This document shows, piece by piece, positions 1 through 12,909 of a stretch of DNA of 64,000 bases. The position numbers and the translations under genes were made by a program. How positions within the stretch are numbered: the first letter of the stretch is position 1; every line of letters starts with the position of its first letter. The notes under the pieces were generated by a model. The model saw nothing but the letters and a program-made list of their open reading frames with translations, was not told where the DNA came from and searched no databases. Origin of the DNA: Phycisphaerae bacterium (lineage in GTDB: Bacteria > Planctomycetota > Phycisphaerae > Sedimentisphaerales > Anaerobacaceae); contig JAGOLX010000034.1 in the NCBI GenBank assembly GCA_017993835.1, forward strand, positions 1-64,000. The letters are read 5' to 3'.

Positions 1-130
1 CGCACGTCCGGTTCGATGAGCGGGACGTGGAAACGGAGCAAGGTAGAGCTACTGAGGCACCGGCAGACGAAAGGGCCGGAAACAGATAGGCTCCCCCTAA
101 ACCACCGCGCCACGTCTCGACTCTACCACG
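1..130 (+). mobile_element. probable 3' end of a group II intron (domain V 3' strand onward)
   Basis: The window opens with CGCACGTCCGGTTC (1-14), which matches the 3' strand of the conserved group II intron domain V hairpin, followed by GATGAGCGGGA, a common sequence after domain V in bacterial introns. A hairpin with CCGGC/GCCGG arms lies at 60-79. The matching 5' strand, the GAAA loop and any reverse transcriptase would lie before base 1, so only the tail is visible. The 3' splice boundary cannot be placed and the end given is a guess. The identification rests on motif recall, not on a fold. Confidence 0.5.
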
Positions 131-146
131 AATCCCTTTGGGAGAA

Positions 147-167
147 GGTGGGCACAGCCCACCCTAC
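147..167 (-). repeat. small palindromic repeat, GGTAGGGTG family (copy 1)
   Basis: A 7-bp perfect stem (GGTGGGC / GCCCACC) with a 3-nt loop is followed by CTAC on the plus strand, so the unit reads GTAGGGTGGGC...GCCCACC on the minus strand. Related copies lie at 27638-27659 and 27816-27837. All three are outside genes. Confidence 0.6.
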
Positions 168-184
168 ATGTGCCTGCCCTTGCC

Positions 185-696
185 CTTCTCTTCATACGGC
201 CACGGACGCAAGGGCGGGACGCCCTCGCCACGCCGCGTCACACGCCGCTGAAGGCGGAGAAGCCGCCGTCCACGGGGACTGTGATTCCCGTAACGAACTT
301 CGACGCGTCGCTGAGCAGCCAGAACATCGCGCCGAGCAGCTCGTCGGGCGACCCGAATCGGCCCATCGGCGTGTGGCCCACCACCTGCTCGCCGCGAGGG
401 GTCAGACCGCCGGTCTTTTCGTCGGTGAGCAGGAATCGGTTCTGCTCGGTCAGGAAGAAGCCCGGCGCGATCGCGTTGACGCGGATGTCCTTCGCGTAGT
501 TCTGGCACATGTGGACCGCCAGCCACTGCGTGAAGTTGCCGATGGCGGCCTTGGCGGCCGAGTACGCCGGGATCTTCGTCAGCGGACGCAGCGCGTTCAT
601 ACTCGAGACGTTCAGGATGATGCCCGCCTTCTGCTCGGCCATCAGCCTGCCGAAGACCTGCGTCGGCAGCAGGGTGCCCAGGAAGTTCAGGTCGAA
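185..696 (-). pseudogene. truncated duplicate of the SDR oxidoreductase gene at 16818
   Basis: This 512-nt stretch is the reverse-oriented counterpart of 17178-17689 and has exactly the same length. It encodes the C-terminal part of a short-chain dehydrogenase (open from an internal ATG at 642 to a stop at 238). Over those 134 residues only six differ from the intact gene. The catalytic Y-S-A-A-K motif is kept but the Rossmann nucleotide-binding half is absent, and homology stops abruptly at 696. About 50 nt of 3' flank is duplicated too. It cannot bind NAD(P) normally and is most simply a pseudogene left by a segmental duplication. The adjacent intron tail and tRNA may mark a recombination-prone spot (inference). 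Confidence 0.85.
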
Positions 697-784
697 GTTC
701 GCGGTACCCGCTGGCGGGGAACAAGGTACGCGCGTTCGACCGGCGTGTCAAGACGCGATCCGAGACTCGCGCTGATGATCCCCA

Positions 785-859
785 TCGGGGTGACTGGACT
801 TGAACCAGCGACCTCGTGCGCCCAAGGCACGCGCTCTAGCCAAACTGAGCTACACCCCG
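785..859 (-). tRNA. tRNA-Pro (anticodon UGG)
   Basis: The minus strand folds as a full cloverleaf: acceptor CGGGGTG/CACCCCG, D stem GCTC/GAGC, anticodon stem CGTGC/GCACG around loop CTTGGGC (anticodon TGG), and T stem GCTGG/CCAGT with loop TTCAAGT. The discriminator base is A and CCA is not encoded. C1-G72 and the overall sequence fit bacterial proline tRNA, and all stems close with at most one G-U pair. Confidence 0.95.
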
Positions 860-1036
860 TCGGAACCTTTCAACGCGAGGCATTATACCGCAGCAGGGTG
901 GTCCGCTGCAACTGAAGTGATTCAAGAAGTCAGCGTTTCGCGGGCTTGCAGGAGGAGACGGAGGGTGGTAAGCTACGAGCATCGTTTCCGCAAACCGAGC
1001 ACAAGCTCTGTGCATGTATATAGAATGGAAGAAGAT

Positions 1037-3379
1037 ATGCAGATCAGTCTGACCCCGGTGGAGGAGGTTGCCGTCCGGGCCTCGTCCTTCGACGCCCTCT
1101 ACCCGCCGACGGAAAGAATCCCCACGATTGTCGTAGAGAACTTCCCCTCTCTGGGCAAGCTGGCGGCGATGCGGTTCATCGAGTGGGCCCAGCAGCACCC
1201 GGACGGCGTGATTTCCCTGCCGACCGGCAAGACGCCGGAACACTTCATCAAGTGGGTCCGCCGATTGCTGGCCGAGTGGGAGACGCCCGAGGTCCAGCAG
1301 ACCCTCCGCGAGGCAGGCGTCGATCCGACGAAGAAGCCCGACATGACGGGCCTGCACTTCGTTCAGATCGACGAGTTCTACCCCATGGACTCCTCCCAGC
1401 ACAACAGCTTCACCCACTACGTGAAGCACTTCTACATCGAGGGCTTCGGGCTGGACCCCGCCAAGGCCCTTCTGGTCGATCCGTGTACGATCGGCCTGGG
1501 GCCGGGCGAGACGCTGGCGGCGGCCTGGCCGGGCAATCGCGTGGACCTGACGCTGCGGTACCGCCAGGCGACGAACCAGCTCGAATCCCGCCAGAAGACC
1601 CTGCTGGCCCAGATCGACCAGTGGTGCATGGAGTACGAACAACGAGTTCGCGACCTGGGCGGCATCGGGTTCTTTCTCGGCGGAATCGGTCCTGACGGGC
1701 ACATCGGTTTCAATATCCGCGGCTCGGACCACTACTCGACGACCCGCCTGTGCCCGACGAACTACGAAACGCAGGCGGCCGCCGCGACGGACCTGGGCGG
1801 AATCGAGATCGCCCGTCAGAGCCTGGTGATTACCATCGGGCTCGATACGATCACGTACAATCGCGACTGCACCGCGATCATCCTGGCGGCCGGCCAGGCG
1901 AAGGCCGCGCTGGCGGCCCAGGCCATCCAGTCCGCCAAGACGATCGAGACGCCCGCGAGCTGTCTGCAAGGCCTGCCCCATGCGCGGTTCTACATCACGC
2001 GGGGGGCCGCCGCACACCTGATCGAGCGACAGGTCCGCGTTCTCGAAACGACGACGGCCGTCGTGGACACGGATGTGGAGAAGGCCCTGGTCGACCTGGC
2101 GGTGCGATGCCACAAGCGCGTGCTGGACCTGACCGAAACCGATTGTCATTCCGACCGGCCGGCCGCGGTCGTCCTCAAGCGACGGCGCGAGCCGCTGGCC
2201 CGCCTGACCGCCATGGTGCACGAACGACTCGCGGCCAAGATCGAGGCCGGCCTGCGGGTCTACCGGGACAAGCGATTCCTGCACACCGAGCCGCACCACG
2301 ACGACGTCATGCTCGGGTACTTCGCCCAGATCGTCCGCCACTTCCGCCAGGCCAGCAACGAGCACTATTTCATGACGCTCACGAGCGGCTTTACGTCCGT
2401 CACCAATCAGTTCATGCGGTCCCAGATGGCCGGCCTGCGACGGTTCCTGCACACGCCCACGTTCAAGACTCTGTGGGACCAGAACTACTTCGTGCGGGAC
2501 AACGAGATCGACCGCAACCGCGACGTATGGCAGTACCTTGACGGCGTGGCCGCACACGACGAGGACGACAAGGCGGAGGGCTGCGCCCGTCGGATGCTGC
2601 GCAACCTCGTCGAGCTGACCGGCGTGGATTCGCTCCAGGATGTGGATCGCTGCGTCGCGGAGCTCGAGGAGTACTTCGCGTCCGCCTATCCGGGCAAGAA
2701 AGACCCCGAGCGCATCCAGCGGCTCAAGGGAATGAGCCGGGAATGGGAGGCGGAGTGCGTCTGGGGATACTACGGATGGCAATGCCAGAACATCCGGCAC
2801 CTCCGCCTGAGCTTCTACACCGGCGACATCTTCACCAAGGAACCCACCATGGCGCAGGACGTGCCGCCCATCGTCGGGGAGCTGGAGAGGCTCGATCCCG
2901 ACGTGGTTGCGGTCGCTTTCGATCCGGAGGCCAGCGGGCCGGACACGCACTACAAGGTTATGCAGGCGCTGGCCGAGGCGATCCGGGTCCATCTGCGGAC
3001 CTCGTCGAAGCCCAACATGAAGATCTGGGGTTACCGCAACGTCTGGTTCCGCTTTGATCCTTCCGAGGCCAACCTCTTCGTCCCGGTGAGCCTGGCCATG
3101 TTCTCGGTGATGCACAACGCCTTCATGGACTCCTTCATCACGCAGAAAGACGCCTCGTTCCCGAGTTACGAGTACGACGGGCCCTTCTCGCAACTGGCCC
3201 AGCGGATTCAGGTGGAGCAATATCAGAAGATCAAGACGTGCCTGGGTCGCGAGTGGTTCTACAACCATCCGAAGGCGGTGATCCGCGCGACCCGCGGCCT
3301 GGTCTTCCTGCGGGAGATGTCGCCCGCGGAATTCCTTAGCTCCTGCCGGGAGCTGCGTAAGTCGGTTGAAGACCGCTGA
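1037..3379 (+). CDS. glucosamine-6-phosphate deaminase-like protein fused to a PIG-L-type deacetylase domain
   Basis: The 780-residue protein has an N-terminal NagB/6-phosphogluconolactonase-type domain (about residues 15-360) with L-P-T-G-K-T-P near residue 60, an I-D-E-F acidic motif, and a G-P-D-G-H-I-G-F-N active-site loop. The C-terminal part carries H-H-D-D in a PIG-L/LmbE context (about residue 420), the zinc motif of N-acetylglucosaminyl deacetylases. Similar NagB-PIG-L fusions are known in Bacteroidetes and planctomycetes. The likely role is deamination/isomerisation of glucosamine-6-phosphate coupled to amide hydrolysis in amino-sugar use; the actual substrate is not proven. The ATG at 1037 is preferred because GGAAG lies 5 nt upstream; an ATG at 1025 is possible. 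The protein looks cytoplasmic. Confidence 0.8.
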   Translation: MQISLTPVEEVAVRASSFDALYPPTERIPTIVVENFPSLGKLAAMRFIEWAQQHPDGVISLPTGKTPEHFIKWVRRLLAEWETPEVQQTLREAGVDPTKKPDMTGLHFVQIDEFYPMDSSQHNSFTHYVKHFYIEGFGLDPAKALLVDPCTIGLGPGETLAAAWPGNRVDLTLRYRQATNQLESRQKTLLAQIDQWCMEYEQRVRDLGGIGFFLGGIGPDGHIGFNIRGSDHYSTTRLCPTNYETQAAAATDLGGIEIARQSLVITIGLDTITYNRDCTAIILAAGQAKAALAAQAIQSAKTIETPASCLQGLPHARFYITRGAAAHLIERQVRVLETTTAVVDTDVEKALVDLAVRCHKRVLDLTETDCHSDRPAAVVLKRRREPLARLTAMVHERLAAKIEAGLRVYRDKRFLHTEPHHDDVMLGYFAQIVRHFRQASNEHYFMTLTSGFTSVTNQFMRSQMAGLRRFLHTPTFKTLWDQNYFVRDNEIDRNRDVWQYLDGVAAHDEDDKAEGCARRMLRNLVELTGVDSLQDVDRCVAELEEYFASAYPGKKDPERIQRLKGMSREWEAECVWGYYGWQCQNIRHLRLSFYTGDIFTKEPTMAQDVPPIVGELERLDPDVVAVAFDPEASGPDTHYKVMQALAEAIRVHLRTSSKPNMKIWGYRNVWFRFDPSEANLFVPVSLAMFSVMHNAFMDSFITQKDASFPSYEYDGPFSQLAQRIQVEQYQKIKTCLGREWFYNHPKAVIRATRGLVFLREMSPAEFLSSCRELRKSVEDR

Positions 3380-3405
3380 TTCCGTTGTGAATCACTCATG
3401 CACTC

Positions 3406-3434
3406 TTGCCTTTTCCGGCGGATTCACCCATAAT
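3406..3434 (+). promoter_or_regulatory. sigma70-like promoter upstream of the 81-aa protein
   Basis: TTGCCT (3406-3411), a 17-nt spacer, then CATAAT (3429-3434), about 45 nt before the ATG at 3482. Fit to consensus is good but untested. Confidence 0.45.
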
Positions 3435-3481
3435 AGTATTGGCTGAAACGATGGAAACGGCTCGAATCTGAGGACAGAGGC

Positions 3482-3727
3482 ATGGACTTGGAAGGCGTTC
3501 GAGAGGCATTGTTGCGTCGGCCATTTGAGCCCTTCAAAATGTGCTTGGCCGATGGCCGATCCTTGGCTGTGCGTCATCCGGAGATGGTCGCGGTAGGCAA
3601 GCGGCGAATCGTCGTCGTTGGGCCGGACGATTCCACCCTGTTTGTCGAGCCGCTCTTGATTGTCTCTCTGGACTTCAACGGCGAGCATCCTGCGAAAAAG
3701 AACGACCGCGAGAAGGGAGCCGGATAG
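3482..3727 (+). CDS. small conserved hypothetical protein (81 aa)
   Basis: The protein is 81 residues, with a R-R-P-F-E-P-F motif near the N-terminus followed by a short beta-rich region (L-A-D-G-R, a hydrophobic V-V-V strand, then L-F-V-E-P-L-L-I-V-S-L). Small proteins with the pattern R-P-F-x-P-F...L-A-D-G-R...H-P are common in planctomycete genomes, usually without known function. It has its own promoter-like sequence and a GGACAGAGG stretch just before the ATG. No catalytic motif, signal peptide or membrane segment is present. Function is unknown. Confidence 0.65.
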   Translation: MDLEGVREALLRRPFEPFKMCLADGRSLAVRHPEMVAVGKRRIVVVGPDDSTLFVEPLLIVSLDFNGEHPAKKNDREKGAG

Positions 3728-4349
3728 GGCAGTCTATCCCGACGAGACCGGTCCGCCGCAGACGATGGCATTGTTTGCGGAGGAACGTCTCGTTCGGTGC
3801 GCGGTCATGCAGCCTGGCATTTGCCCCGCCCATTTTTTTCTTCCCATCCCAGTTCGTCGGGCGTATGATAGTGGGTACTCGTATGTGCTTCCCCACCCGG
3901 CCGCGCCGGCGGGAAGGACATCTGCAACTTCGCTCCACATCCGTGATTCGAGACAGAACGGTTCGCTTTTTCACAAGACGGCCAACGCATCCTTTGCAAC
4001 GTCGTGTGCATCAGTCCGCAAGGACCGGCCATCCCCATCGGGACGCCTCCGGCGGCTGAGAGCAGGAATCAGGATTGTGCTGCTGCCCATCCGGCGCAGC
4101 GGCACCACTGCGTTCCATACGCGTCATATACCACAGGATGTGACACAAGGGCGGCCATCGCGTGAGCCCGCGCAAACGGCCTTCGCAGCGGCAGAAAGGA
4201 GGCATATCGGCTGCTGTGGAAGACCAGCGCTCAACCAGCAGCCCCTTGTTGCGATGTGGAGTCGAACCCTCCAGAGCAAGGAGCACCCGTCGAGACATGG
4301 TCGCACGCGGAGACCCAACGACGAGAGGAAGCACAAAAGGAGAACGAAC
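3728..4349. other. intergenic region, no gene recognised
   Basis: This 622-nt stretch separates the small conserved protein from the caspase-like gene. Open frames cross it, but none has a plausible start, ribosome binding site or recognisable protein. A good Shine-Dalgarno (AAAAGGAG, about 4335-4342) for the next gene is at its end. No hairpin terminator or structured RNA was recognised. Confidence 0.5.
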
Positions 4350-5480
4350 ATGAAGATCGGAAAACTGGAATTCAAGGGATATGCGGCGAAGAAACCGCTG
4401 ATGGTATCGTCGACCGGAGCATTTCTCACCGCGGCGGATGTTCTGTCTCAACCCAGCCTGGGGCGCGCGTCCACACTCGCGTTGAGCCCGACGTCTCAGG
4501 TTGATCTGGCGGTGGCCCGGTACGCACTGGAGCCCGATTTCAATCTCGGGGTCATCGGGAAAGGACTGTACTCGAAAGACGACATCATCGACCACCTCAA
4601 GAAACAGACCGACTTCGGCCAGGAGGTGCTCCAGGCCGAGATGAAGTACTGCACCGATTTGCTCTTCACGCTGGGGCCGCAGGGTGTCACCTCCGAGCCG
4701 AAGATCCCCAAAGAGCCTGTCCGTAAGGTGCCAGATTGGAAGCCGGTGAAGAAGTGCATCTGGATCAAGCTCAAGACGCGGGCCCTGTTCTGCGAGAACA
4801 CCACGGACGGCGTGACGGCGCCCTTCGCCCAGTATCGCATCGCCAATGTCCATCCCGTGTTCAAGAAGAGGGGATTCACGGTCATCGCTCTCACCGGTGT
4901 CGACGACGTGCGAAACAACTTCGTCCCTCACGCCAAGAACACGCTCACCGTATACCTCAGCGGCATCGGACACGGCAACTACACCACCTACACCGGCCAT
5001 GGGGGCAATCACATTCTGGAAGTCGGTCAGTATGACCCCGCGGAGGTCAGGGGCAAGGCCATCCATTTCCTCAGTTGCCAGACCGCGGGCAAGCTCGGCC
5101 CGGACACGGTGGCCAAGGGCGCGAAGTGCTATGCCGGCTATACGGAGAACTTCACGTTCGTCTGGGAGGATCCGAAGACCCCGATGCAGGACTTCCTGCT
5201 GTTCGCGAAGGCCGACAGCATCTATGACATCATGATGGCCAACGGTACCACGGCCCAGCAAGCATACAACGCGGCCTACCAGTTGTTCACGGCCGGCGCC
5301 AATCAGGTTCCCAATACCGCTGCAGCCACTTGGCTGATCTATGACAGGGACCACCTGAAGTTGCATGGGAATGCGGCCACCAGGATCCTGCCGTACCGCT
5401 ACGTCAAAGTGTGCTTCCCGCTCGTCAGCGCCGAGCAGGAAGACGCCCTGGTGGGAGCAGGCGAACTCGTCGAGGAGTAG
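4350..5480 (+). CDS. caspase/gingipain-like (clan CD) cysteine peptidase with N-terminal shared module
   Basis: The 376-residue protein has no signal peptide or membrane segment and probably acts in the cytoplasm. Residues 190-275 carry the clan CD signature: a beta strand ending V-Y-L-S-G-I-G-H-G, then Y-T-G-H-G (His217), then a hydrophobic strand ending F-L-S-C-Q-T-A (Cys243). The His-Cys spacing resembles gingipain (family C25) more than metacaspases. Residues 75-108 form a compact module (S-K-D-D...F-G...A-E...Y) that recurs, without gaps, in the 112-aa protein just downstream. The start at 4350 is supported by AAAAGGAG 8 nt upstream. Substrate is unknown. The dyad assignment is by motif only; a pseudo-enzyme is possible. 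Confidence 0.65.
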   Translation: MKIGKLEFKGYAAKKPLMVSSTGAFLTAADVLSQPSLGRASTLALSPTSQVDLAVARYALEPDFNLGVIGKGLYSKDDIIDHLKKQTDFGQEVLQAEMKYCTDLLFTLGPQGVTSEPKIPKEPVRKVPDWKPVKKCIWIKLKTRALFCENTTDGVTAPFAQYRIANVHPVFKKRGFTVIALTGVDDVRNNFVPHAKNTLTVYLSGIGHGNYTTYTGHGGNHILEVGQYDPAEVRGKAIHFLSCQTAGKLGPDTVAKGAKCYAGYTENFTFVWEDPKTPMQDFLLFAKADSIYDIMMANGTTAQQAYNAAYQLFTAGANQVPNTAAATWLIYDRDHLKLHGNAATRILPYRYVKVCFPLVSAEQEDALVGAGELVEE

Positions 5481-5525
5481 CGTGTCGAAGACCGAGGGTC
5501 TGTCGGGGACCGTCGCATGACCGCG

Positions 5526-5555
5526 GAGGAGCCGCCTGCGCGCGGGCGGCTCCTC
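5526..5555 (+). terminator. strong hairpin after the caspase-like gene
   Basis: A perfect 11-bp GC-rich stem (GAGGAGCCGCC / GGCGGCTCCTC) with an 8-nt loop starts 45 nt after the stop codon. The run of U expected for an intrinsic terminator is weak (TCATTG), so it may instead be an mRNA-stabilising or attenuating structure between the peptidase and the next gene. Confidence 0.5.
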
Positions 5556-5686
5556 TCATTGCGCAGAGGCCTCTTCTGGGAAACACGAGGACGCGGTACA
5601 ATCATGACGGTGGACGCGGACAGCCAACACAGGAACGTGGGGTTGTCCGGGAAGTCGAACAGGGACGAAAGGAGTGGTGCCGGACC

Positions 5687-6025
5687 ATGGCGATACCAGA
5701 ACCTGATAAAGCCAATCGCAAGAAACCGTTGTGCTATGATCCCGCCAGGAGGAAGTTCATCCTCTTCGACGACATCGTTTCGGGCAGAGAGAAGATCGTT
5801 CCGCTGGAATCTCTGTCCCAGGACGACCTGAAGAAGCTCGTGATCGAGCGGCATCGAGCCGGTCCGGACTACCGTGTGCAGGCCGACTGGGGCAGCCCGG
5901 CGCAATCTCGCGACGACGTGGTCCGAGCCATCGAGCGGGATGAGCCTTTCGGCCGGATCACAGTAGAGGCTGAGACGTCGTACTTGCGGGAGTACCTCGC
6001 CACCATCCAGAAGGACCTGATGTGA
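5687..6025 (+). CDS. 112-aa protein sharing a module with the upstream caspase-like peptidase
   Basis: The start at 5687 has AAAGGAG 11 nt upstream. The N-terminal half (residues 10-65) contains a C-Y-D-P-A-R-R-K-F-I-L-F-D stretch of unknown type. Residues 74-107 (S-R-D-D...F-G...A-E...Y...T-I) align without gaps with residues 75-108 of the caspase-like protein: ten identities by eye and many conservative changes. There is no signal peptide or membrane segment. The simplest reading is an adaptor, inhibitor or regulator that meets the peptidase through a homotypic contact, but this is inference from the shared module and adjacency only. Confidence 0.6.
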   Translation: MAIPEPDKANRKKPLCYDPARRKFILFDDIVSGREKIVPLESLSQDDLKKLVIERHRAGPDYRVQADWGSPAQSRDDVVRAIERDEPFGRITVEAETSYLREYLATIQKDLM

Positions 6026-7797: not shown

Positions 7798-10700
7798 TCA
7801 GTTGCCTGCGTCCTGCTGGTAGAGCGATAGAACCTCGGATTCCGAGAGCGCCACGTCGTAGAGGCGAACGTCGTCCAGTGTCCCTTTGAAAAACGCTGTG
7901 GAGGAGGATGGGTTGAGGGCTCCCAGCGTCAGAGGCTGCTGCTTGTTTGTGGGCGTGAAGGAGTAGTCCTGGCTCCCAGCCGGCACGCCATCGATGTACA
8001 GAAGCGCCTTGGACCCGTCGCGGACCGCGGCGATGTGGACCCAGCGACCGCTCGGGATCGCTGCGGCGGTGCCAACCGTCACGGTCTTGATCGTGGAATC
8101 CGTGAAGTAGAACTCGACGCGTCCGTCCGCCGTGCAGGCCAGCGTGTAATCCCGCAGAGCCATCATGCCCTGCGCTTTGCCGATCAGGTATCCCTTCGAC
8201 GACGGCGTCGAGGGCAAGAAGGCCCAAAGGGCGAGAGTCATCTTCTCCGGGGCCAGGACATCGGCATTCCCGCAGTTCACGTAGTCGTTCTTCCCGTCAA
8301 ACTGGAGCGCCCCGCCGATCTTGCCGTCCACGTAGGTGGGAGCGTGGATCGTCCCATCGATCGTCCCATCGTTCGTGCCGGCGGAGTCTTCCGCGGTCAT
8401 CCCCGGCGTATCATCGAACTGCCAATGCGCCACCGGCATGAAGGCAGGTCGTCCGGCGGGCGCAAAGACCGCACACGCCGCGGAGTTGTTCCCTTCGTCC
8501 GACTCCAAAACACTGCCGGGGGAGTCCAGAACCACGAAGACCTGGCCTCCTTCGTTGGGGTCGAGATCGTAGCTCAAATCCCAGATGGTCGAGACTTCGC
8601 AGGCCCCGCCGGCCACCAGCATCTGGACCTCGCTGGAGCCAATCTCGTTGCCGTCCGGCGTATTCAACCGCCAGGAGACCTGGAAAGGCCCGCTCAGGAT
8701 CGCGCCTGTGTTTGTCACTCTGGCCGTCAGGAGGGCCTCCCTGGGCGAGAAATCGCTGCTCCAGCAGGTCTCGACCGTCAGGTCGGGCAGGACGGTCAGC
8801 TTGGACACCCTGTTGTTCTCGGGATCCCGGTCGCTCACCGTACCATAGGGATCGACCACGACGAAGACCCTGTGCGATTGTTCGCCGGAGGGAACGGTCC
8901 ACGATGTGAGCACATCCTGCTTGCCGCCGGCGATGAGGATTCCAGACAAGACCTGGACATCGCCAATGAGCGTATCGCCGCTGTTCGGATCGCCATCATA
9001 GAATGCCACTTGCACATCCTGCAGGGGCAGGTCGCCCGCGTTCTCGATGGTCGCGGTGATGGTCGCTGTCTGGCCTGGCGAGGGATTGCCGGGCTCGACT
9101 GCGACGGACCCGGCAACTACGGCCGCATCCCGTGCCGGCGTGTGACGCAACATGCACAGATCAACCCGGCCGGGCTGTGGAACGTTCTCGATGTGCGTCA
9201 TCTGGCCATTGATCTCGACGTCCATATCCTCGCGGACCGTCTGCGTCTTGAGATAGGCCAGCACGAGGTCGTTCCCATCGCACGTCAGAGATAGCGCGCT
9301 CTCGGCGTGCTCGTCATGTGTCAGTTGGCGGGGCTGGGACCACAGGTCCAGATCGGCGTCGTAGAACGACGCGACGATGTCCACCCCGTTAGGACCCTGC
9401 GTGGTGTACGCGATCGCGCCGCCCACGGGTAAGGTAACGCCCGCCAGAGCCATGCAGTCGTTCGCATCCGTGGCCTCGTTGTAGACCACTCTCGGATTCC
9501 ACGGGTCCAAACGCGAGTACGTCGCAGTCCCATTGGCATCCCACACGCACATCGGAACACCCTTCGGCGTCAGGAGAGCCGGGCTGGAGTCTTCCACGTC
9601 ATCCTCGGTCAGCCGCAGGGCCTCCTGCCACACGCCGTTGACGGTGGCCATCGCGTAGAGCTCGGAGTCCGCAGTGGTGTCCAGGTCGCCATCTTCATCG
9701 ACGGTCAGGACGACATGCCCCTCGCCGGCGCTGTCCGCGACGAACGCGAAGTCCATGATCCCCTTCGGGCCGGACCAGAGAGTCTCCGGTGCCTGCCACG
9801 CGGCGCCGTCCCACCGGGCAAACAGGAGCCGGTCGCCATTGTTGGCGTCCCCTATGCTGGCCTGGCCCTGATTCTGAATCCACAGGATTCCCTGCGTCGG
9901 ACCCAAGACAACAGGCAATGGGTCGCGATCGACCACGGAGTTGAATGTCAGTTGCTCGGGCACCGTCCACAGCCCTGTGTTCTGATCCAATCGCGCCGTC
10001 ACAATCTCCAGGTGCGGCGTCACCTCGTCGGGGCTGGTTGTGCCCGATATATCGCCCGAAATCCGAGTCCAGGCAACAAGCGCAGGCTCTGTCCCGATGA
10101 TCTCGGGTCCGAACTCGGCCGCGTCGTCGTCCGCGATCCGATCCAGAGCCCACTCCCCATCGGGAACCTTCGTCGCCACACCAATATCCGTCGCCGCGTA
10201 CCAAGGTTTGTTCGGATCGTGCAGCGCAAACAGGACAACAGTCTGCGCCGGATTTGAGAGCACCGTCGGTGCCGCCAGATTGGTGACGTTTTCCGCAATG
10301 ATGTCCTCTGCCGAGACCGTCGGATCGTCGGCTGAGAGTATCCTGATCCCTCCCAGCCCTCTCTTCTCAGCCACACGATTTGCCTCACCCCATCGCAGGT
10401 AGCTGGCGTCCATCGGCGACCAAGGCAAGTCGTCTTCCTGGGCCCAGAGAACATCATCCATGTGCCCCGAGACGGAAAGGCGACGTGCAATCGAACGCGG
10501 CAACTCCGACATGCCCGCCATCTTCGTCTTGCCACCTGCCTCAAAACGCAACTCCGCGCCATATTCTTCGCGGAAGGAGAACAATGGAGCCCACGCGTAG
10601 ACACCGACATATGCCCTCAACGTAAGAGCCTCAAATGCGAAGTCGGGACATATTTGAAACTCCGGCGTCCCCGTGCCACCAACATAAACCCCCGCACCTG

Positions 10701-12909
10701 TTATCTTCAGATCGAGGACAGCGTGTGCTTCAGCCCCGGCGGTGAGTGCTCCCTTGAGGGATGTGGTGCCGAGGAAGCAGTCGCCGGTTCGCCCCCCCTC
10801 GTACTCACCCGAGATCGTGCCTCCCAAAACCACGTAGAGGCGGACTTTCAAATCACCTATGACCGGCAGGTAGCTCAGAGCACTACCCAGACCTGGCACG
10901 ACAACGTCCAGGATGACAATCGCAGGCAAACCGACTCCAGCCTTTCCCGTACATGAGACTGACCATCCTGGCGTTATCCTTGGGCTGTCGCATCCCGCGA
11001 ACGAAATACTGAGTGTCCCCATCCCGTCCAGACGTCCCTCGCCCAGCAATTCCCACTTGCTTCCGGGTATGTCCAAGTCCAAGCTGTACCCCCCAAATCC
11101 GCCAAGGGATCCAACAAAGATCCCGGCCAGCAGATCATAGCTCAGCCCCCCCTGGAACCCCAAGAACGCCTCTAACTGGAGAACATCCGTAGGAATCGGC
11201 AGTTGCCAGTGGAGACCCCGTTCATGCACGTAAGTCAGCTTGAGACCCGATGGCGTCCATGGGATGTTGTCGCGGTACCACGGAACAACAATCCCGGGAA
11301 TCGGGGAGAAGCGCACCCCAGCGTTCATATACGTTGTCTCGCCTTCGCCATTGGTGACCTCTACCGTCACCTCGCTACAGGCTAAGACCGCGGACGGAGC
11401 TGGGATCGTCAGGCTGGCACGTGCTTTGCTGCCGCCGAGGTCGGTGATCGTCGTATCATGCCATTCTCCGGCCACCTGGAAACGCACCGATCCGGGCGTC
11501 CCATTCCATGCGACGGTGACCCCGAATCTGAGATCGCCGGGCATCCCTTCGATGAAGTGTTTGCCGTCTGGAGAGGTGAAATCGGTCGCCGACGGCCCGT
11601 CCGACTGACGCGTCAACCTGATCTCAACCTGCTTCGTCTCTCCGCTCGCAAGATCGACCGCCTCGCTGTTATCATAGAAGTAGACCTTCTTTGCTGTGGC
11701 CGTGTATTTCCCCGGCTCCAGGTCGCTGAAGGCAAATTGACCCTGGGCATCCGTGGTCGCCGTCCATGGCCCGGGGCCAGACGCCCACTGGAGATCGACC
11801 GTCGCACCGGCAACCGAACCCAGTGCTCGTCCTTGAGCATCGACCCCGATCACCGACCCGATGATAGTACCCTTTCGCGACGGTGCCGGCACTCGGAAGC
11901 ACTCGGGATCTCCTGCGTCACTCCCGGCCGCGTTCCTCGCTTCGGCAACGCAACACACCTCGGCATCGGGGATGAGCGTGCCGGTCCATGCGGTCAAGTC
12001 GATCGTACTGCTGAACACGGCTCCCTCTTTGGCGCCGTACTGCCAAGGCGTGTAGACCGATACTTTTGGACCGAGCCTCTTGAGATAGCACCGGAACCGA
12101 TACTGGCACGTGCCGCCGCCGTCGTCCTCCAATCGGCCGCGAAACGTAACCGATGTCGAGGTCACAATCGGCGGCAGCGTCGAAACCCGCGGGCTGACCA
12201 TCGTCGGGGCCGAACCCCCAGTTCCACCCCAGACCTCCGTAATGTACGCACCCTTATTGTTCATGCCCAGGTCGACGAAGTCGAACTGCGTTAGACTGCC
12301 GTCATCCGCTTCCCCGACCACGTCTCCGTCGTAGGTAATCACCCAGTGGCCACCTTCATCCCGAGACGCCTCCACGTTGTGGTATGCGCCGTCCCACGGC
12401 ACTGCCTTCTCCACCAGTATCACTGTATTCGAATGAGTGAAACAGACGCGCACGGTCTGAAGGTTCCCAGTGGGCAGTCCGTACATCAGACAGTAGTAAT
12501 TCTGAAGATATCCCTTTCCTAGAAACATAGCGGCATAGTCCGATTCATCGTCTTGGCCGTTTCCCTGCGCCTTGCCACAGAAGCCAAAACTGATGGCAGT
12601 GCTGTTGGTGGGCGAGAGAACCGCTTTGAGATGAGCGGACGCGGCGGGATAATCGTCCCGAGCAGTCAATTCGCCGTCTGAGCAGATCACAGGATTACTC
12701 CCGCCCGCTTGTTCCCAGACGGGTCCGAAGACGCAGTCGTCGAAATCCTCCTGAAACGGGAAGGGAAGCGTGTCACCCGACGCAATGACCGAGAGCCAGA
12801 GAACCAAGACGAGCCTCCAGACCCAGGGCGACTGACACAGCGACATGTGGCTGGTCCTCGGAAACAGCGAGAAGTGAAGGACGACGGGGAAGCTTCTTGT
12901 CGATGCCAT
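7798..12909 (-). CDS. giant exported multidomain protein (carboxypeptidase-regulatory-like, CARDB-like and LamG domains)
   Basis: The 1703-residue protein has an N-terminal hydrophobic export signal (residues about 28-44, W-R-L-V-L-V-L-W-L-S-V-I-A-S-G). A jelly-roll-like region follows (about 50-235), then a carboxypeptidase regulatory-like beta domain near residues 345-440 (G-A-T-V-D-L...G-Q-F-A-F-S-D-L-E-P-G-K-Y). A long middle of beta-rich sequence may fold as a propeller (about 800-1270). Two CARDB-like domains (about 1275-1480) contain N-A-G-D-L-P-L and N-T-G-A-I-L, and a C-terminal LamG/concanavalin domain (about 1495-1703) contains H-W-Q-F-D-D and A-L-Q-F-D-G-K-N-D-Y-V. It is probably a cell-surface or secreted binding protein; no enzyme motif was seen. 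GGAG precedes the start at 12909, but an ATG at 12846, also with a GAGGA upstream, would put the signal peptide at the very N-terminus. Confidence 0.75.
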   Translation of the reverse strand: MASTRSFPVVLHFSLFPRTSHMSLCQSPWVWRLVLVLWLSVIASGDTLPFPFQEDFDDCVFGPVWEQAGGSNPVICSDGELTARDDYPAASAHLKAVLSPTNSTAISFGFCGKAQGNGQDDESDYAAMFLGKGYLQNYYCLMYGLPTGNLQTVRVCFTHSNTVILVEKAVPWDGAYHNVEASRDEGGHWVITYDGDVVGEADDGSLTQFDFVDLGMNNKGAYITEVWGGTGGSAPTMVSPRVSTLPPIVTSTSVTFRGRLEDDGGGTCQYRFRCYLKRLGPKVSVYTPWQYGAKEGAVFSSTIDLTAWTGTLIPDAEVCCVAEARNAAGSDAGDPECFRVPAPSRKGTIIGSVIGVDAQGRALGSVAGATVDLQWASGPGPWTATTDAQGQFAFSDLEPGKYTATAKKVYFYDNSEAVDLASGETKQVEIRLTRQSDGPSATDFTSPDGKHFIEGMPGDLRFGVTVAWNGTPGSVRFQVAGEWHDTTITDLGGSKARASLTIPAPSAVLACSEVTVEVTNGEGETTYMNAGVRFSPIPGIVVPWYRDNIPWTPSGLKLTYVHERGLHWQLPIPTDVLQLEAFLGFQGGLSYDLLAGIFVGSLGGFGGYSLDLDIPGSKWELLGEGRLDGMGTLSISFAGCDSPRITPGWSVSCTGKAGVGLPAIVILDVVVPGLGSALSYLPVIGDLKVRLYVVLGGTISGEYEGGRTGDCFLGTTSLKGALTAGAEAHAVLDLKITGAGVYVGGTGTPEFQICPDFAFEALTLRAYVGVYAWAPLFSFREEYGAELRFEAGGKTKMAGMSELPRSIARRLSVSGHMDDVLWAQEDDLPWSPMDASYLRWGEANRVAEKRGLGGIRILSADDPTVSAEDIIAENVTNLAAPTVLSNPAQTVVLFALHDPNKPWYAATDIGVATKVPDGEWALDRIADDDAAEFGPEIIGTEPALVAWTRISGDISGTTSPDEVTPHLEIVTARLDQNTGLWTVPEQLTFNSVVDRDPLPVVLGPTQGILWIQNQGQASIGDANNGDRLLFARWDGAAWQAPETLWSGPKGIMDFAFVADSAGEGHVVLTVDEDGDLDTTADSELYAMATVNGVWQEALRLTEDDVEDSSPALLTPKGVPMCVWDANGTATYSRLDPWNPRVVYNEATDANDCMALAGVTLPVGGAIAYTTQGPNGVDIVASFYDADLDLWSQPRQLTHDEHAESALSLTCDGNDLVLAYLKTQTVREDMDVEINGQMTHIENVPQPGRVDLCMLRHTPARDAAVVAGSVAVEPGNPSPGQTATITATIENAGDLPLQDVQVAFYDGDPNSGDTLIGDVQVLSGILIAGGKQDVLTSWTVPSGEQSHRVFVVVDPYGTVSDRDPENNRVSKLTVLPDLTVETCWSSDFSPREALLTARVTNTGAILSGPFQVSWRLNTPDGNEIGSSEVQMLVAGGACEVSTIWDLSYDLDPNEGGQVFVVLDSPGSVLESDEGNNSAACAVFAPAGRPAFMPVAHWQFDDTPGMTAEDSAGTNDGTIDGTIHAPTYVDGKIGGALQFDGKNDYVNCGNADVLAPEKMTLALWAFLPSTPSSKGYLIGKAQGMMALRDYTLACTADGRVEFYFTDSTIKTVTVGTAAAIPSGRWVHIAAVRDGSKALLYIDGVPAGSQDYSFTPTNKQQPLTLGALNPSSSTAFFKGTLDDVRLYDVALSESEVLSLYQQDAGN

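Follow-up and report, generated by a model that had tools for sequence, protein, structure and literature searches.

A module shared by a clan CD-like peptidase and the product of an adjacent gene in bacteria of different phyla: a possible prodomain-only inhibitor

Introduction

Why would a bacterial caspase-like peptidase be followed by a gene whose product repeats the N-terminal region of the peptidase itself, and does that product act on its neighbor as an adaptor, an inhibitor or a trigger? The question is raised by a planctomycete contig of which a stretch of 64,000 nucleotides (hereafter the window) was analyzed, and for which an initial annotation had aligned a short segment of the two adjacent proteins and likened them to effector-associated domain (EAD) systems. 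Here we examine the homology, catalytic motifs, distribution and descent of this gene pair, together with the readings of its function that these features favor.

Results and discussion

The small protein as a homologue of the peptidase N-terminal module

The pair comprises the following elements of the window:
4350..5480, + strand: likely clan CD-like cysteine peptidase of 376 aa, an open reading frame with a Shine-Dalgarno sequence
4389..4673, + strand: N-terminal module of the peptidase (residues 14-108), delimited by homology to the small protein and by predicted structure
5687..6025, + strand: stand-alone module protein of 112 aa, adjoining a peptidase with N-terminal module at 5 of 5 loci

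Both genes are read from the same strand across a gap of 206 nt, and each has a good ribosome-binding site (AAAAGGAGAA at 4335-4344 for the peptidase; GAAAGGAG at 5667-5674 for the small protein). A gapless alignment of 34 residues with ten identities, pairing residues 75-108 of the peptidase with 74-107 of the small protein, had been proposed as a shared module; the best ungapped pair falls exactly there, scoring 59 with BLOSUM62, where 150 shuffles averaged 17.9 (sd 4.5) and did not exceed 33. While the homology is upheld, its extent proved to be about 100 residues rather than 34, or nearly the whole small protein: BLASTP aligned residues 12-107 of the small protein with 14-108 of the peptidase (28% identity, E 4e-8), and in 5000 shuffles of the small protein the gapped score was never reached. 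When a profile of five small proteins was compared with one of five peptidase N-termini, E was 2.2e-13, the catalytic core serving as negative control (E about 1). When the window's genome was queried with the small protein, only the protein itself and the peptidase N-terminus were returned. Together, these sequence comparisons support a real module common to the clan CD-like peptidase and its linked small protein.

Structure prediction, by which the two modules might have proved unrelated, gave the same order of elements in both proteins. The small-protein model (mean pLDDT 80.5) comprises a beta-hairpin, with strands at residues 14-18 and 23-26, and several helices, and the peptidase module is likewise predicted to be a hairpin followed by helices. 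Foldseek and VIA searches with the small-protein model identified no credible relative (best Z 2.5), an absence that does not prove a new fold. Similarly, the model does not have the look of a death fold (CARD, DED and DD being all-helical six-helix bundles) and had no Foldseek match, a missing match again being no proof. One segment is specific to the small protein:
5732..5755, + strand: codons 16-23 (CYDPARRK), the CYDP motif and basic turn of the predicted beta-hairpin, called from invariance and the model

Among the residues invariant in 5 of 5 small proteins but not in the peptidase module are C16, Y17, D18 and P19. Basic residues come next, where the model places the turn of the hairpin (motif CYDPxRKKF), and the peptidase module lacks this CYDP-basic turn.

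Catalytic motifs of the peptidase

The remainder of the peptidase was delimited from an alignment of seven relatives:
4728..5477, + strand: catalytic domain (residues 127-376)
4971..4973, + strand: catalytic His208 of the GHG motif (IGHGN), invariant in 7 of 7 relatives, including the G139 and archaeal-virus proteins described below
5076..5078, + strand: catalytic Cys243 of the LSC motif, invariant in 7 of 7 relatives

Across this alignment H208, G209 and C243 are all invariant (YLSGIGHGN...IHFLSC in the window), and the catalytic His (as HG) and Cys are each preceded by a hydrophobic strand, as is characteristic of clan CD. The catalytic pair had initially been read as His217 and Cys243; the cysteine holds, whereas position 217 is occupied by Tyr in the G139 relative and by Glu in the archaeal-virus relative, leaving His208 as the invariant histidine. 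The absence of a signal peptide, also noted earlier, is borne out in that none is apparent from the sequence.

Models of the peptidase core were poor (pLDDT below 50 over most of residues 187-275), and a Foldseek search with this low-confidence model found no significant match. A structural second look at the same low-confidence model with VIA placed SAVED-CHAT first (8tl0; Z 8.3 over 153 residues at 3.4 A), followed by caspase-4, caspase-6, CED-3, separase and a legumain-like ligase. Because the GHG and SC motifs are invariant and the VIA list is led by SAVED-CHAT and then by caspases, CED-3, separase and the legumain-like ligase, a clan CD-like identity is likely. The peptidase shares the His-Gly and Ser-Cys motifs of gingipain-type C25, CHAT and caspase peptidases (clan CD; PMC4357240), and clan CD entries lead its VIA list; it differs from them in having no significant match among Pfam peptidase models and in carrying motifs of its own family, ENTTD and LGPDTV. 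The Pfam C25 (gingipain) profile matched neither the window peptidase nor its close relatives; only the archaeal-virus relative matched it, under the cut-off (E 0.015), and profile-profile comparison (hhalign) against C25 proteins was not significant. A match of the peptidase core to Glyco_hydro_67C (E 5e-4), also under the Pfam cut-off, was treated as chance.

More generally, no family in Pfam, NCBIfam, PADLOC or PHROG was matched above cut-off by either protein, the PADLOC anti-phage defence models included. DUF7943 matched a single module under the cut-off (E 0.009, part of the profile covered), and PDB sequence searches were empty or returned chance matches. The module, the peptidase family and the hairpin in the gap described below are all without a match in the libraries searched.

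Linkage of the pair in five unrelated neighborhoods

The pair was identified, in the same gene order, in five unrelated neighborhoods, these being the pairs known in this analysis: two genera of the window's planctomycete family, a Sumerlaeota MAG, a Verrucomicrobia MAG and an IMG/VR contig. Scans of genome contigs recovered the Sumerlaeota and Verrucomicrobia relatives (L003 and L004), searching 89 genomes in the family of the window added one more (G039), and a viral-contig scan found the IMG/VR contig (L026; IMGVR_UViG_3300027985_001156, 1-5569). The peptidases of these four loci are 55-60% identical to that of the window over their full length. Each is followed, after 82 to 567 nt, by a module-only protein of about 110-120 aa, and the small proteins are 44-59% identical to that of the window. 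Homologues of the two genes that never occurred together would have spoken against a functional pair; instead, they are linked at five loci across phyla.

Flanking genes differ at every locus (names assigned by eye, except for the phage genes): in the window they encode a glucosamine-6-phosphate deaminase-like product and a membrane protein, in L003 they are mraZ and rsmH-like genes, in L004 they encode a nitroreductase-like product and a PQQ-repeat-like protein, in G039 a PEP-phosphotransferase-like gene is present, and L026 has HNH, small terminase (TerS) and large terminase (TerL) genes. No third conserved gene was found at any of the five loci. On L026, a 5.6-kb fragment, GC content jumps from about 35% (30-40%) at the pair to about 60% at the adjoining phage genes, and the pair there may be phage cargo, an insertion or a chimeric assembly. 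L003, L004 and G039 are themselves metagenome assemblies or incomplete genomes. The L003 contig also has a gene for a gingipain-like, C25-type secreted peptidase at 8876-11017 (- strand), some 1.2 kb away from the pair, probably a coincidence.

The two-gene system is rare. Of 392 genomes sampled from the window's phylum, 2 have the peptidase. The module, at E up to 0.02, was found in 1 of 338 genomes from the L004 phylum and, one weak match being left aside, in 1 of 40 from the L003 phylum. A plasmid collection held no relative, and further viral-contig scans revealed no second contig. Genome searches with the module returned exactly two matches each in G000, G480 and G481, with no third intact copy.

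Descent and probable transfer of the two lines

Identity between the catalytic cores of any two loci ranges from 52 to 65%, and at 63% the two loci of one family (those of the window and of G039) do not resemble each other more than loci of different phyla do. Since core identities do not track taxonomy, these sequences suggest that the pair has been horizontally transferred between very different bacteria. The small proteins are 41-59% identical among themselves and the N-terminal modules 42-55%; a small protein is only 21-23% identical to the N-terminal module of its own peptidase (mean 22.3%), compared with 20-25% (mean 23.2%) for foreign modules. As a small protein does not resemble the module of its own peptidase more than foreign modules, one old duplication preceded the spread of the pair, with both copies retained and the two lines kept apart since. 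Such separate conservation is expected of a partner with its own role, and not of an exchangeable copy. Distances of the two genes were also compared over the five loci, and their correlations were not significant.

The same data bear on whether the two genes might be historical neighbors only, a prodomain copy that arose long ago and has traveled with a peptidase of housekeeping or degradative function, the two lacking functional coupling. The loci are few, and in G039 a degraded, half-length copy of the small gene separates the intact one from the peptidase (L006, about 2826-3010; G039:C331:14671-14820), which indicates that copies can be lost. Against this, order and linkage have been kept at 52-65% identity across phyla in five unrelated neighborhoods, and both proteins and the hairpin in the gap have been retained. 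Mere historical proximity therefore appears very improbable.

A hairpin between the genes and the stretch upstream

Two non-coding features recur at the loci:
5525..5556, + strand: intergenic hairpin with a stem of about 14 pairs, a 4-nt loop and no T-run, one of the strong gap hairpins found at 5 of 5 loci
3728..4349, + strand: long stretch upstream of the peptidase with no convincing gene, a similar stretch being present at 5 of 5 loci

Gap hairpins of 12-17 pairs, none with a T-run, occur at all five loci (elsewhere at L003 7151-7188, L004 7270-7315, L006 2679-2712 and L026 1902-1929), and their sequences are unrelated between loci. At three loci the gap hairpin is the only one of its kind in the whole stretch examined. 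Of stretches of the same length taken from other parts of these loci, 0 to 3.4% had a hairpin as strong. As this background was all DNA and not intergenic DNA only, a terminator-like function is possible, although neighboring genes at the three loci have no such hairpins. An intrinsic terminator was not called by consensus, there being no T-run; the simplest reading is that the hairpin separates or balances the two products. Rfam had no match in the region. An integron attC-type site was considered and rejected, the hairpins being nearly perfect and located between the two genes only. Upstream of the peptidase, about 590-990 nt have no convincing gene in the window, L003, L004, L007 and L026; these five stretches share nothing above chance, and a conserved upstream RNA or peptide was accordingly discarded.

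Distant relatives and other architectures

Among six close peptidases the module is present in all, N-terminal in five and C-terminal in one (G139; L010 781-2067). The latter, identified by profile searches, has a likely signal peptide, and its module stands after the catalytic domain and before another domain. No separate small protein was seen on the short G139 contig, so a partner would not be universal. Profile searches also identified two exported-looking proteins (G159 and G195) that combine the module with the G139-type C-terminal domain and have no catalytic core; the module can hence occur without a peptidase. At L009 (1177-2121, - strand) and L011 (1207-2067) the module stands without a catalytic core, of whose end a short remnant may persist. 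The L009, L010 and L011 proteins are exported-looking and come from one small planctomycete order.

A stand-alone relative of the core, more distant than these peptidases, is encoded by a virus of archaea (Methanofastidiosa; L043 4905-5651, BK063666.1 vir519_00054); it has no module, and a membrane helix was recognized by eye at its C-terminus. Weak module matches (E above 1e-3) were obtained for G308, G190, G270, G261, G366, G1047 and others; that in G308 lies inside a long open reading frame resembling an HD-domain ribonuclease and is probably due to chance.

Adaptor, substrate or inhibitor

EADs of NTP-dependent conflict systems are homotypic domains common to an effector and its partner (PMC7159879), and the present module, a small non-enzymatic domain found in an effector peptidase and in the product of the adjacent gene at five loci, resembles them in this respect. 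In other respects the EAD reading proposed initially is not supported in its published sense. Pfam searches with 13 modules, in a library confirmed to include EAD4, gave no EAD match at E up to 10; no copy was seen joined to VMAP, iSTAND, Ubl or GAP1 as core component, the partner being module-only and no third intact copy of the module turning up in G000, G480 or G481; and adjacent copies are not closest relatives. The pair is best described among linked pairs of a protease and a prodomain paralogue.

Sequence does not settle the choice among adaptor, inhibitor and trigger. An adaptor or activator that co-assembles with the N-terminal module, gathers peptidases and activates them by proximity on a sensed signal, in the manner of EADs or CARD adaptors, would fit the published layout of an effector and partner with a common homotypic domain (PMC7159879), and long-prodomain caspases are activated by prodomain-binding adaptors (PMC4357240). 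We consider this role a less likely one, given that the small protein is module-only, with no sensor or second recruiting domain, that none of the loci has a conserved third gene, and that no EAD family was matched. Nevertheless, a module-only protein could equally act as a nucleator of activation.

The conserved, exposed basic turn after the invariant CYDP might alternatively mark a substrate or structural subunit, in which the peptidase would recognize the module of its partner and cut, perhaps at this turn, to free an active fragment. Cleavage after Arg or Lys is common among clan CD families (PMC4357240), and pairs of a protease and a cleaved partner are known in bacterial immunity (PMC12799240). 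The small protein lacks a second domain for release as an effector, and measures about 110-120 aa everywhere, which makes this proposal improbable, though less so than historical proximity.

The reading we rank first, and hold tentatively, is that the small protein may be a trans-acting, prodomain-only inhibitor of its peptidase. The following considerations favor it. The prodomain of the gingipain RgpB inhibits by an Arg-bearing loop that enters the S1 pocket (PMC4357240). A basic turn that is conserved in the small protein and lacking from the peptidase module is likened here to that inhibitory loop. The arrangement, in which a paralogue of a protease prodomain is encoded next to the protease, is that of CARD-only proteins and caspase-1 and, in logic, that of Spi and SpeB. 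CARD-only proteins (ICEBERG, INCA and COP/Pseudo-ICE) are stand-alone copies of a caspase N-terminal module that were duplicated near caspase-1 and act as decoys (PMC3775265). The present pair shares a stand-alone copy duplicated near the protease gene; it differs in being bacterial, in a predicted beta-hairpin and helices in place of the all-helical CARD, in copies that diverged anciently (about 22% identity) and not recently, and in that inhibition here is our inference. Spi is a propeptide analogue and inhibitor encoded beside SpeB (PMC2873492); there too a small protein akin to the N-terminal region of a protease is encoded adjacent to it, and protease-inhibitor pairs also ride on mobile elements. 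Unlike SpeB, which has a C10 papain-like fold, the present peptidase is clan CD-like and has no apparent signal peptide, and the module can be C-terminal (G139). Classic protease-inhibitor pairs are co-transcribed (PMC2873492), whereas here a hairpin separates the two genes, a difference that counts against an inhibitor.

On the inhibitor reading, the pair would constitute a compact, horizontally spreading system of two genes, one for a clan CD-like peptidase (His208/Cys243) that bears a regulatory module at its N-terminus and one for a stand-alone paralogue of that module. The small protein would bind the peptidase in trans, most likely via the module or the active-site face, with the basic hairpin turn as candidate bait loop, and the bound peptidase would stay silent until a trigger removes or outcompetes the small protein. 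The gap hairpin would probably uncouple the two products or set their ratio.

Implications

Taken further, this suggests a possible, though doubtful, picture of a mobile two-gene system in which a bacterial decoy that is prodomain-only, and that has a bait loop and a new small fold, restrains a caspase-like peptidase, their ratio being set by a sequence-independent RNA hairpin, and which may serve as a phage-carried defence or addiction unit. In animals, the regulation of caspases by stand-alone copies of their own recruitment domains is already known, and the homotypic coupling published for bacteria lies mostly within larger multi-component systems. If true, the pair would be a bacterial counterpart of a caspase and its CARD-only protein, and a peptidase with its prodomain paralogue alone, kept through cross-phylum transfer, would represent the simplest version of this homotypic-regulation logic.
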